Assembly: GCA_945878635.1 (NCBI GenBank)
Contig: CAMCTV010000003.1
Location: 1-64,000 of the forward strand
DNA: 64,000 bases
Direction: 5' to 3'
DNA from: Chryseobacterium gleum
GTDB lineage: Bacteria > Bacteroidota > Bacteroidia > Flavobacteriales_D > Sanyastnellaceae
The position numbers and the translations under genes are program-made. Shown here piece by piece: positions 60,059 through 64,000 of the stretch. Every line of letters starts with the position of its first letter. The stretch's first letter is position 1. The notes under the pieces were generated by a model that worked only from the letters and a program-made list of their open reading frames with translations, was not told the origin of the DNA and did not search any database.

Positions 60059-61042
60059 TTAAAAACTTGGTGTTATCATCGACTTATATCTATTCTGATT
60101 TTTTATTAACCATTGATTGAATTGCTTTGGTCTCTCCATATTCCAAACATGTCCAACTTTTTCAAGCTCTGTATAGTTGATGCCTTTAAAATGTTCAGCT
60201 TGTTTTCTTCCCACCTCAAGCGGAATCAATCGATCTGCATCTCCCCAGAATATGTTGACCTTGCATTTCCATTGAAAATTGTACCTGATCCAATACTCCT
60301 CATTTTTTCTTAAATCAACTACCAACTGCTCGTGATCCTTCCGCCTTGGCTCTAAATCATTTTCAATAATCTGATTGGCTACAAAACGGGGCACCCATAT
60401 TTTTCGATGCAATGACAACTTTGTTCGTGTATTAAATACCGCAGCGTTAGCTGGAGATAACAAATCAAAAAAATCTTGAAGACCAACCGAATGCGCAATA
60501 GAATCGGCCATTGATGCGCCAAAAAATCGTATGGGGGCATCAATCATCGTAAGCTGACTTGTCATATTGGGATATTGATCTGCAAAGATTCCAGCGACTA
60601 TTCCGCCGTATGAATTTCCAACAACATGAACCTTTTGATAGCCGTCATCATTGTGCAACTGAGATAACAACAACAAACATTCAGCAACCCAATGCACTTG
60701 ATCTTGAATGGAATAACCTTGAGGAATATTTTTGGACTCTCCATGGAATTTAAGATCCAAGGCTATAACGTCATAATGCTTGCTCAACTTAGAAGCATTC
60801 TTGGCGTATTGAACTTCAGCATTCCCTGTTATACCATGAAGCAAAAGCAACTTTGGCTTTCCTTGATGCGAGACCCATGCGTGACCCTCGTCGCCATTGT
60901 TGAACTTTAAAACAACTTCATCGAGATGGTGTCGATGCATTTTTCTTGAACGAGCGCTTTGAATGATGTTGCGCTGAGCAATCAACGCTTCAGAAGCGAT
61001 GAATGAGAAAACAAAGACAAATCCCACTAAAATTCTATTCAT
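60059..61042 (-). CDS. Secreted alpha/beta hydrolase
   Basis: 327 residues with a signal peptide (MNRILVGFVFVFSFIASEALIAQ). The alpha/beta hydrolase triad is visible: Ser144 in GNSYGG, Asp in FWGDADRLIP and His in VGHVWNMERP, with oxyanion loop LLLHGITGN. It may be an esterase or lactonase acting in the periplasm. It is the last gene of the permease-mutarotase operon (ATGA overlap), so an ester of the sugar could be its substrate, which is inference only. Confidence 0.82.
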   Translation of the reverse strand: MNRILVGFVFVFSFIASEALIAQRNIIQSARSRKMHRHHLDEVVLKFNNGDEGHAWVSHQGKPKLLLLHGITGNAEVQYAKNASKLSKHYDVIALDLKFHGESKNIPQGYSIQDQVHWVAECLLLLSQLHNDDGYQKVHVVGNSYGGIVAGIFADQYPNMTSQLTMIDAPIRFFGASMADSIAHSVGLQDFFDLLSPANAAVFNTRTKLSLHRKIWVPRFVANQIIENDLEPRRKDHEQLVVDLRKNEEYWIRYNFQWKCKVNIFWGDADRLIPLEVGRKQAEHFKGINYTELEKVGHVWNMERPKQFNQWLIKNQNRYKSMITPSF

Positions 61043-61377
61043 TCTTCCTCCAGTTTATAAATTAAATGCGCCATCTTCCATTTCTCGCCTGAGAGAGAAC
61101 CTGGAATGGGTTGTTGAAACTTCCACATTAATTTTTCCCATTCAACTGTTGGAGGGTGACCCAAATCTGCGATAGACTTCTTCTTCCAATTCATCTCCTG
61201 ATTGGAATGTGCTATTAAAACCAAACGGTTGCTGAATCTATAAATACGACATGATGTGATACCTGATCTTAAAATTTGCGCCTCTACTTCTGGCCAAACA
61301 TTTTGATGCCATTTTTCATATTCACCTATTCCGTTTGGATCATCAACCAAATCCAGAAAAAAAACATATTCATTCAT
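61039..61377 (-). CDS. L-rhamnose/L-fucose mutarotase-like protein
   Basis: 112 residues, the size of the RhaM (L-rhamnose mutarotase) family, ferredoxin-like fold. Typical parts are YEKWHQNVWPEVEAQIL (conserved His), the SCRIYRFSNRLVLIAHS strands and WEKLMWKFQQPIPG near the end. It should speed conversion between alpha and beta anomers of a 6-deoxy sugar. The start at ATG 61377 overlaps the permease stop by eight bases. Confidence 0.82.
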   Translation of the reverse strand: MNEYVFFLDLVDDPNGIGEYEKWHQNVWPEVEAQILRSGITSCRIYRFSNRLVLIAHSNQEMNWKKKSIADLGHPPTVEWEKLMWKFQQPIPGSLSGEKWKMAHLIYKLEEE

Positions 61378-62542
61378 GCTGCATTCTTTTGTAATAAAAA
61401 GCAAACACACCAACAAAGCAAAAGCACACCATCGGCAAAAAATAGGCCCAACTTAAATTCCCAGACCATTGTGCCAATTGTGCCATTGCAAATGGAATCA
61501 AAGCTCCGCCTGAAATGGTCATGACAATAAACGCGCCGCCTCGCACTTTGTTGCTTTGCAAAGTGCCTATTCCAAGCGCGAAGATAGTAGGGAACATGAT
61601 GGACATGAAAAACGGAAGTGCCAACAAAAAGAACTGTGAAAATGGCTGAGCCAAAACAACTCCTAGCGTACATACGACTGCACCTAAAGAAAAGAACAAA
61701 AGAATTTGCTCTGCCGGCCATCTTCTCATCATCCATGATCCAATGAATCTTCCTGTTGTAAAAAAAGCCAATGAAAGAGAAAGGTAATAGGCTGATTCCT
61801 GCATACTATGAGAAAAGTACAGACTCATGTATCTGATAAAAAAGCTTGAAATACCAATCTGTGACCCTACATATAAAAACTGAGCAACCACGGACATTAC
61901 AAAAGAATTGTTCTTAAAAATGTCATTTGAATTTGATGGCGCATCAAGACTTGGCTCATGAAACATTGGAAATTTTAATCGGTAGATGACAAACATTAAG
62001 CAAACAATAATCAAAGCCAGCACTATGAAAGGCGTTGTTTCCAAATGACTATTCTGATCTGTTTCATCCAATAATAAAAAGCCTCCCAAACCAGCGGCAA
62101 CCATTGCGCCAAGACCATTGAAACTTTGCGCCAAATTGAGTCTGTACACTTGTTGTTCTGGAGCGGAAATTCGCGTTATCAATGGATTGGCAGCTGCTTC
62201 AAGCATTGTGATTCCCAAACCTATTAACAATAATGCCCCCAGAAAAAACACATACGAGTGTAGAAATGATGCCGGCACAAACCCCAAAATTCCCGATGCA
62301 AATAATCCCAACCCCAACAAGATGGTTTTTTGATAACCCATTTTAGCAATCAAAAAAGCAGATGGCAAGGCCATGATAAAATAAGCGATGTAAAAAGCGC
62401 TGTCCACCAACATGGCCTTGGTGTCCGACAATTGAAAAGACTGTCGCAACTTGGCAATCAAAATTGGATTTAAGTTATGCGCCAAAGCCCACATGAAAAA
62501 CAATGATACTAGGGCTAAAAACAAAGATTGACTATGTTTCAT
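61370..62542 (-). CDS. Sugar MFS transporter, L-fucose permease (FHS/FucP) family
   Basis: 390 residues, twelve membrane helices, inner-membrane sugar-proton symporter. Early features match FucP-type permeases: FFMWALAHNLNPILIAKLRQ in helix 1 and LVDSAFYIAYFIMALPSAFLIAKMGYQK. The centre has GLGITMLEAAANPLIT, with LAQSFNGLGAMVAAGLGG in the following helix. The start at ATG 62542 shares one base with the upstream stop (TAATG). L-fucose is the likeliest cargo by family, but other sugars are known for FHS members. Confidence 0.88.
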   Translation of the reverse strand: MKHSQSLFLALVSLFFMWALAHNLNPILIAKLRQSFQLSDTKAMLVDSAFYIAYFIMALPSAFLIAKMGYQKTILLGLGLFASGILGFVPASFLHSYVFFLGALLLIGLGITMLEAAANPLITRISAPEQQVYRLNLAQSFNGLGAMVAAGLGGFLLLDETDQNSHLETTPFIVLALIIVCLMFVIYRLKFPMFHEPSLDAPSNSNDIFKNNSFVMSVVAQFLYVGSQIGISSFFIRYMSLYFSHSMQESAYYLSLSLAFFTTGRFIGSWMMRRWPAEQILLFFSLGAVVCTLGVVLAQPFSQFFLLALPFFMSIMFPTIFALGIGTLQSNKVRGGAFIVMTISGGALIPFAMAQLAQWSGNLSWAYFLPMVCFCFVGVFAFYYKRMQHE

Positions 62543-63681
62543 TATCTTCTTATTTTGATTGGAATAAACGATTCCAAATTGTATTCTGAAACAACCACCC
62601 AATAACCACCGCCGCCTGCGCCCGAAATCTTGAAACCCAAAATATCGGATTCAATCGGTTTTAGAATAGCTTCTGCTGTTTCATTGGTCATGAGCGGAAA
62701 TAGCTGACACTGCGCTCTAAATGATGCCGTCATCCATCTCCCCAATCCGTTTAAGTCTTTATTCAGAATACTCAACCAAACATTTTTGGCTGCATCAGCC
62801 AATTGCTCCGCTCCATCATGACTGAGATGGACTTCATCCAAAACCTCAAAACCATCTTCTCGCGGTCCTATTGGAATCAAAAACAAATGACGCTCCAACC
62901 ACAATAATGTATCTTCATCAAGAACGGTGGTTATGCCCTGCGGCCAATAATCATTTTTATAATCCAACCTATTTAAGCCTGGAAAAACAATGCCTATTGC
63001 ATCTTGAGAGCCTGAAACATTTTTCCTTCCAGGGGGATTATCAGCAGCGAAAAGTAACTTGGCCATTTGCTCATTGTCTTGATTGGGGAGGTGTTTTCCC
63101 CATAAACTCAATGCTGTGTTTCTTGTGCTAGAGGCCATTCCACTTCGCAGGTTAAAGTTGACCGATGGTAAAATGGAAATGGTAACAACAGGACCAGCGC
63201 AATGCTGACTGACAAAGGGTTGATCCAACCATCCACCCGCCAAATCGATTCGAAATGGCATCTCTGTCTCTTTGCGAAATTGAGTCGTTGACCGTGCAGG
63301 TAAACCATCCTTGGGTGTTCTTTCTAAAACAATGTATTGGACTCCATTGGACTCAATGAAGGCCTGCTTTTCTTCGCTATGTCCATCTTCATTGACAACA
63401 AAATAATCTGGAAGAATCTCGTTTAGCTCTTCAATAAAATCCAACTGGCCAAACCCTTTACTGATTTTGACTTCTTTGACAACGCGCAAAGCACTTAGTA
63501 AATATGTTCGTTCTTGTTCATTGAAATAGGTGGACCTTTTCTTCAATTGCAAGACATTGGCGTCATTGCCAATACAAACAAATAATTCACCTAAATCTGC
63601 AGCGCGCTCTAGAAATGCAATGTGCCCTGGATGCAATGCATCAAAACATCCAGACACCATAACTTTTGGAACTTTCATCAT
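62542..63681 (-). CDS. Nucleotidyltransferase-GHMP kinase fusion, candidate sugar activation enzyme
   Basis: 379 residues, two domains. The first (about 5-137) is a cytidylyltransferase-like fold: VSGCFDALHPGH with HPGH at 17-20, and ARSTTQFR at 129-136 in place of ISTTxxR. The second (about 142-379) is a GHMP kinase: motif 1 RIDLAGGWLDQP (144-155), SGSQDAIGIVFPGLNRLDY (223-241) and motif 3 KISGAGGGGYWVV (351-363). The usual glycine-rich motif 2 is unclear; GMASSTRNTALSLWG (181-195) takes its place. The order suggests phosphorylation of a sugar and transfer of a nucleotide by one protein. It starts 13 bases after mpl and is coupled to the FucP-type permease. Confidence 0.82.
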   Translation of the reverse strand: MMKVPKVMVSGCFDALHPGHIAFLERAADLGELFVCIGNDANVLQLKKRSTYFNEQERTYLLSALRVVKEVKISKGFGQLDFIEELNEILPDYFVVNEDGHSEEKQAFIESNGVQYIVLERTPKDGLPARSTTQFRKETEMPFRIDLAGGWLDQPFVSQHCAGPVVTISILPSVNFNLRSGMASSTRNTALSLWGKHLPNQDNEQMAKLLFAADNPPGRKNVSGSQDAIGIVFPGLNRLDYKNDYWPQGITTVLDEDTLLWLERHLFLIPIGPREDGFEVLDEVHLSHDGAEQLADAAKNVWLSILNKDLNGLGRWMTASFRAQCQLFPLMTNETAEAILKPIESDILGFKISGAGGGGYWVVVSEYNLESFIPIKIRR

Positions 63682-63694
63682 CCCAAGATAATGA

Positions 63695-64000
63695 TTAATT
63701 CATTGGTAATCGCAAAGCCAAATCAGCGATGTCCAACCCATCAAAATTGCCACTGGTCATCCACAACAAATGGGTCTTTTCCCAATCACTTTCCATTAAA
63801 ATCATTTCAACCAAACTGGCATCGGTTAACACGATCAAATCCTCCCGTTGAAATGCTTTTTTTACGTCATCCACACTGATGGGATCCAATCGTTTGTGCG
63901 CAATGGTATGAGGATTAAAATAGACAATCGCAACATCTGGTTCATCCATGCTGTGCGCATATTGCTCCAAAAATGCGGAATTGAGACTACTAAAGGTGTG
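63695..64000 (-). CDS. mpl: UDP-N-acetylmuramate tripeptide ligase Mpl (3' end only)
   Basis: The last 101 residues of a gene that continues beyond the window. EQYAHSMDEPDVAIVYFNPHTIAHKRLDPIS and LLWMTSGNFDGLDIADLALRL match the C-terminal domain of the Bacteroidetes Mpl group, which recycles cell-wall tripeptide onto UDP-MurNAc. Its catalytic parts are outside the window, so MurC is a less likely alternative. It probably leads into the sugar operon. Confidence 0.8.
   Translation of the reverse strand, partial: HTFSSLNSAFLEQYAHSMDEPDVAIVYFNPHTIAHKRLDPISVDDVKKAFQREDLIVLTDASLVEMILMESDWEKTHLLWMTSGNFDGLDIADLALRLPMN

Follow-up and report, generated by a model that had tools for sequence, protein, structure and literature searches.

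A compact operon in the 64,000-nucleotide stretch analysed here (the window) encodes a 379-residue fusion of an HxGH nucleotidyltransferase and a minimal GHMP kinase. The protein is likely to be a bifunctional L-fucose-1-kinase/NDP- (probably GDP-) L-fucose synthetase, Fkp-like in action but not an Fkp. The pocket residues, the affinity of the mutarotase and the neighbourhoods of relatives suggest an L-fuco/L-galacto-configured sugar; with the Fkp kinase nearest in profile searches and the gene set of the host genus also taken into account, L-fucose is most likely. A preliminary description of the locus had left the sugar open among fucose, rhamnose, heptose and MurNAc, of which fucose is now favoured. 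We infer GDP as the nucleotide only because neighbours of the fusion gene act on GDP-sugars.

Operon layout and gene calls

Four overlapping genes, all on the minus strand (as are all window features given below), make up the operon. The fusion gene (62542..63681; called from its ORF, a PF01467 match, and the AlphaFold2 model with its structural matches) shares 1 nt of its stop (62542) with the ATG of a gene for a FucP-family MFS permease of 390 aa (61370..62542). The permease gene overlaps by 8 nt (61370-61377) that of a RhaM-like (PF05336) mutarotase of 112 aa (61039..61377), which in turn overlaps by 4 nt (61039-61042) the gene of a 327-aa alpha/beta hydrolase whose N-terminus resembles a signal segment (60059..61042; PF00561, E 3.5e-18). 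The true start codons of FucP and RhaM lie at 62542 and 61377, and the chain of overlaps in the preliminary description is real. Its span for the operon, 60059-64000, holds for these four genes, but the last 306 nt (63695..64000) are the 3' part of a 454-aa gene that runs on to contig position 65059 and that we take, from its sequence, to be mpl. This gene, the immediate upstream neighbour of the fusion and co-oriented with it, ends 13 nt before it; marC and rnhA follow the hydrolase on that strand. Promoter and terminator scans returned counts close to those of shuffles. The hydrolase looks secreted and keeps its place in the operon in 4/4 genus members; it would perhaps provide a de-esterifying step on a fucosylated glycan.

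Nucleotidyltransferase half

The fusion was modelled with AlphaFold2 from 10 aligned sequences (pLDDT 86.5, pTM 0.64); as the pTM is modest and pLDDT is low across residues 126-137, this model does not fix how the two domains are arranged. The nucleotidyltransferase domain spans about residues 4-122 (63316..63672). Residues 9-110 match PF01467 (E 2e-11, 44.5 bits against a threshold of 21), and the HPGH motif is found at residues 17-20 (63622..63633), with H17 and H20, both histidines of HxGH, invariant in 28/28 homologues aligned. Residues 4-121 of the model superimpose on TagD (2b7l; Z 17.8, rmsd 1.6 Å over 112 residues), an enzyme of the CTP:glycerol-3-phosphate cytidylyltransferase type; the domain also matches 1coz (Z 17.6) and HldC (5xf2; Z 16.3). 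The best-known relatives of the HxGH domain use CTP or ATP as the nucleotide substrate. ARSTTQFR, which contains an ISSTxxR-like motif, occupies residues 129-136, and its STTQFR part (131-136; 63274..63291) leads into the kinase; an STT-like sequence followed by R/K is conserved in most bacterial copies. Both motifs, and the fusion of a cytidylyltransferase-like domain to a GHMP kinase, agree with the preliminary description.

Kinase half and sugar pocket

The GHMP kinase domain comprises residues 139-379 (62545..63267). In the model residues 138-379 match the heptose kinase WcbL (4usk; Z 22.1 over 236 residues) and the Fkp kinase with fucose-1-phosphate (9iip; Z 20.1, 225 residues), the latter at 24% identity, the highest among the kinases listed. 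From these two matches the short kinase is predicted to be a complete GHMP fold. Its GHMP marks are an SGMASST phosphate loop, the catalytic Asp D227 and a C-terminal GAGGGG motif. PF08544 was seen in 18/22 family members at a lax threshold, and a Pfam search of the fusion for GHMP_kinases_N gave nothing at threshold. When the PDB was searched with a kinase profile, the Fkp kinase came first (E 1.8e-11) and the heptose kinase 3k85 next (1.4e-5).

Trp599, Asp601, Thr602, Gln761 and Asp762 hold the sugar in Fkp, where Arg592 is close to O1 and to the phosphates; the W599A and D601A substitutions lower kcat/Km by a factor of over 3000, and activity is lost in E751A and D762A (PMC11982464). Fkp R592, W599, D601, Q761 and D762 align with R144, W151, D153, Q226 and D227 of the fusion, which are invariant in 22/22 bacterial copies aligned. 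The Thr602 position is an invariant Gln in bacterial fusion copies, and Glu751 falls, in an approximate placing, close to a position occupied throughout by Asp or Glu.

Permease and mutarotase

The permease resembles the L-fucose:H+ symporter 3o7q (E 2e-58), and its TIGR00885 score of 251 bits is under the 280.4 cut-off, which a FucP-like relative in locus L035 exceeds (317). Asp46 and Glu135 of FucP have a role in transport. Glu135 is kept in the window permease, and Asp46 aligns with Pro (NLND to NLNP), as it does in loci L081 and L082 of the genus. With the Asp46 residue absent and the fucP cut-off missed, the window permease may carry another sugar or be differently coupled. The mutarotase matches PF05336 (70.5 bits, E 1.5e-19). 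As a single query it is equally weakly similar to L-fucose and L-rhamnose mutarotases; the profile of its family is nearest to the L-fucose mutarotase 7byu/7byw (E 5.8e-11), followed by rhamnose mutarotases (1.2e-5).

Distribution and neighbourhoods

Homologues were searched in one phylum, in viral and plasmid scans and in one genome scan. The fusion was present in 4/4 sampled genomes of the genus (G000, G693, G717, G696) and had no match at E 1e-30 in 195 further genomes sampled from the order. When genome contigs were scanned with the single protein as query, one locus (L003) came up; it is apparently the G696 record and was counted once. A plasmid search with a relative found matches to the N-domain only. 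The order mpl, fusion, fucP, rhaM, hydrolase, marC, rnhA is kept in 4/4 genus members, so a search for this gene order, suggested at the outset, found the neighbourhood conserved in the genus. A further 18/294 genomes of another class (that of G176) carry the fusion, distant bacterial homologues being 43-52% identical to the window protein. One candidate, a 1368-aa frame in G135 (L008/L038), was set aside, as very long overlapping frames surround it and no fusion is evident.

Counts at 21 distant loci were read from ORF tables, with representative neighbours identified directly and others by clustering with these and reading their sequences; contig ends make all counts lower bounds. A RhaM-like gene occurs at at least 11 of the 21, a FucP-like gene at at least 5, GH29 or GH95 at at least 7, a GDP-mannose 3,5-epimerase-like gene preceding the fusion at at least 7, and gmd with GDP-fucose synthase at at least 2 (L034, L037). 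At L090 the order is gmd-like gene, fusion, GDP-fucose-synthase-like gene. GH29 lies within 10 kb of the fusion in 6/18 genomes against 0.32 expected (0/200,000 simulations reach 6), a figure that overstates significance because the genomes are related, although they represent four genera. A class II aldolase gene like that for L-fuculose-phosphate aldolase adjoins one fusion gene (L067:5946-6635).

In the tree, the copies of the host genus stand apart from a main group belonging to the class of G176, from a GME-linked clade and from a clade of viral copies. The GME-linked clade comprises L036, L073 and L076 in the tree, and L077 and L078 have its context. It keeps the sugar pocket, its third kinase motif changes from SGAGGGGY to TTGSGGGY, TSGSGGGY or TSGCGGGY, and STT becomes SSS or ASS. 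Epimerase homologues stand directly upstream of the fusion at L036:6332-7333, L034:5285-6250, L064, L073, L076, L077 and L078, and at GME-linked loci a LacI-type regulator often precedes them.

Genomic complement

Fusion-bearing genomes have gmd in 21/22 cases, GH29 in 18/22, FucI in 5/22 (none in the host genus, 0/4) and Fkp over its cut-off in 0/22. GH29 is found in 19/120 genomes of the order and in 4/4 genus members, which also have GDP-fucose synthase (4/4) and GT11 (4/4); gmd of the window genome sits in a polysaccharide-export-like locus. With genes for gmd, GDP-fucose synthase, GT11 and GH29, the genus is expected to produce and use GDP-fucose, and it may liberate fucose. Since it also has the genes of the de novo GDP-fucose route, salvage would be a supplement to that route.

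Phage copies

In tailed phage, full-length relatives of the fusion are flanked by the genes for the terminase large subunit and the portal (L084:1084-2244 and L086:628-1788; neighbours matching phrog_9 at 390 bits and phrog_12 at 401 bits). Others are on viral contigs (L083:5001-6140, L087:4992-6131, L088:4992-6131, L089, L091:5001-6137), that of L083 near phage portal and head-protease genes and those of L087-L091 among genes resembling sugar-transfer genes. In four of the copies in L083, L087-L089 and L091 the pocket Trp is replaced by Phe and the Gln by Val, which suggests that these act on another sugar. More divergent HxGH-GHMP-like fusions with AGGWLD and GWQD motifs were also seen on viral contigs (L095:4992-6080, L097, L099:5004-6089), that of L099 with 33% identity over the first 200 residues. 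A viral scan with the L035 relative as query found nothing.

Proposed mechanism

From the sequence, model fold, pocket conservation, gene context and genomic complement, all directly observed, we infer the activities, sugar, nucleotide and order of steps. L-fucose, probably set free by GH29 enzymes of the cell, would enter via the FucP-family permease, and its anomers would be equilibrated by the RhaM-like mutarotase. The C-terminal GHMP domain would phosphorylate C1 with ATP, with Asp227 as the base, Arg144 and a Ser185-bound metal acting on the phosphates, and Trp151, Asp153 and Gln226 binding the sugar. Transfer of the nucleotide, probably GMP from GTP, would then fall to the N-terminal HxGH domain and give GDP-L-fucose, which would go to surface glycans. 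An operon that combines uptake and anomer exchange with a sugar-1-kinase and nucleotide transfer would form a functional parallel to Fkp, as had been proposed, and the gene assignments agree with this. Observations that count against this reading include the use of CTP or ATP by the best-known HxGH relatives and the missing Asp46 and sub-threshold score of the permease; in addition, the WcbL match is slightly above that of Fkp, the Thr602 position is Gln, and neither GH29 nor gmd adjoins the operon in the host genome.

Alternative readings

The same mechanism might serve L-galactose or D-arabinose as the physiological sugar, GME-linked relatives turning GDP-L-galactose into GDP-mannose; for the window operon we consider this unlikely. 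An epimerase homologue precedes the fusion at no fewer than 7/21 distant loci, often with a LacI-type regulator and GH95. Its best PDB match is 2c59 (two homologues tested, E 3e-84 and 4e-95), the catalytic Cys, Tyr/Lys and Lys positions are conserved in the one aligned, and Fkp itself takes L-galactose (PMC6678494). However, no epimerase gene lies around the window operon, and the two GH29 genes and the gmd and GDP-fucose synthase of the host genus favour fucose. We see little chance that the fusion is instead a heptose enzyme, that is, a D-glycero-D-manno-heptose 1-kinase with NDP-heptose synthetase as a compact analogue of HldE or HddA/HddC. The best structural match is to a heptose kinase, the N-domain resembles HldC and there is a weak TIGR02199 match, but the latter scores 50 bits against a 181.5 cut-off. 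All bacterial copies aligned keep the Trp599 equivalent, at a position where heptose kinases are expected to have Gly; among the distant loci no heptose gene was recognised, and neighbours include FucP-like and fucosidase-family genes.

Slightly less probable still is a degenerate kinase half, in a protein with another activity or none. The kinase domain has only some 240 residues and escapes the Pfam GHMP_kinases_N model, yet every bacterial copy aligned keeps the residues for the base, the metal and the sugar contacts, and the modelled fold is complete. The position of mpl raises a role in cell-wall recycling, in which a MurNAc/GlcNAc 1-kinase with uridylyltransferase activity, analogous to AmgK/MurU, would supply Mpl, and the FucP family does take in the GlcNAc carrier NagP. 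Although mpl is directly upstream in the window and in 4/4 genus members, the cassette adjoins mpl in 0/12 family relatives (L173-L184), no mpl was recognised at the distant loci and the pocket fits Fkp, so that this reading is very improbable. A functional linkage to mpl was rejected: in the 12 family relatives the gene next to mpl is unrelated and mostly convergent, allowing for frames in L181 and L183 that the simple ORF calls misread. As the cassette is beside mpl in none of these, it was probably inserted next to a pre-existing mpl, which would mark the place of insertion.

Comparison with known systems

The open-access full texts searched (most subscription papers being outside that scope) yielded no characterised pathway with this combination of parts, in agreement with the preliminary description. 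Related parts occur in other combinations. HldE also joins a sugar kinase to an HxGH nucleotidyltransferase, but its kinase has the PfkB fold and precedes the transferase, and its substrates are heptoses. HddA is a GHMP kinase like the kinase half of the fusion; HddC is not known to be an HxGH enzyme, and HddA and HddC also act on heptoses. TagD, HldC and the Fom1 CyTase share the fold and HxGH motif of the N-domain, and none is fused to a GHMP kinase. Homologues of GDP-mannose 3,5-epimerase, none of them around the window operon, tie the family to GDP-L-sugars in other lineages.

We hold tentatively, as possible but doubtful, a broader proposal in which the family founds a nucleotide-level L-hexose route: a second, independent invention of the Fkp reaction, a GME clade taking L-Gal from the plant wall through L-Gal-1-P and GDP-L-Gal to GDP-D-mannose, and phage copies that perhaps remodel host or virion glycans. 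If true, the GME-clade route would be the reverse of plant Smirnoff-Wheeler steps, a Leloir-like pathway for L-sugars. The epimerase-linked clade makes this L-galactose route, not found in the open-access papers searched, directly testable.

The closest parallel is Fkp of Bacteroides fragilis (plant FKGP), with which the fusion has the two-step salvage logic and five of the fucose-contacting residues of the GHMP kinase in common (R592, W599, D601, Q761, D762), T602 differing. In both proteins the nucleotidyltransferase comes first and the kinase follows it towards the C-terminus (PMC6468028), and the opposite domain order ascribed to the fusion in the preliminary description was wrong. Its claim of a different nucleotidyltransferase fold stands: that of Fkp combines a Rossmann domain with a left-handed beta-helix, whereas that of the fusion is cytidylyltransferase-like and about 125 residues long, as the 2b7l and PF01467 matches indicate, and the Fkp pyrophosphorylase motif HXGGXSXRXP(X)5GK (PMC6468028) was searched for in the fusion sequence and is absent. 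The fusion matches NCBIfam NF009948 at 40 bits over residues 299-365 only (cut-off 721 over ~970 residues). A 2025 survey favours one origin for the known Fkp enzymes, in a single event that joined a fucokinase to a GDP-fucose pyrophosphorylase; the survey searched those two domains and leaves the HxGH-GHMP architecture unmentioned (PMC12732313), and a search of this kind would not see an enzyme with another nucleotidyltransferase as bifunctional. If the L-fucose reading is true, it would account for the salvage of fucose where a lineage has fucosidase genes and neither Fkp nor FucI is detected, and the compact enzyme would possibly be useful for making GDP-fucose and analogues. With a kinase domain of ~240 residues against ~360 and a total of 379 against 949, about 40% of the length as first estimated, the fusion would then be a second, unrelated solution to the job of Fkp, 2.5 times smaller.
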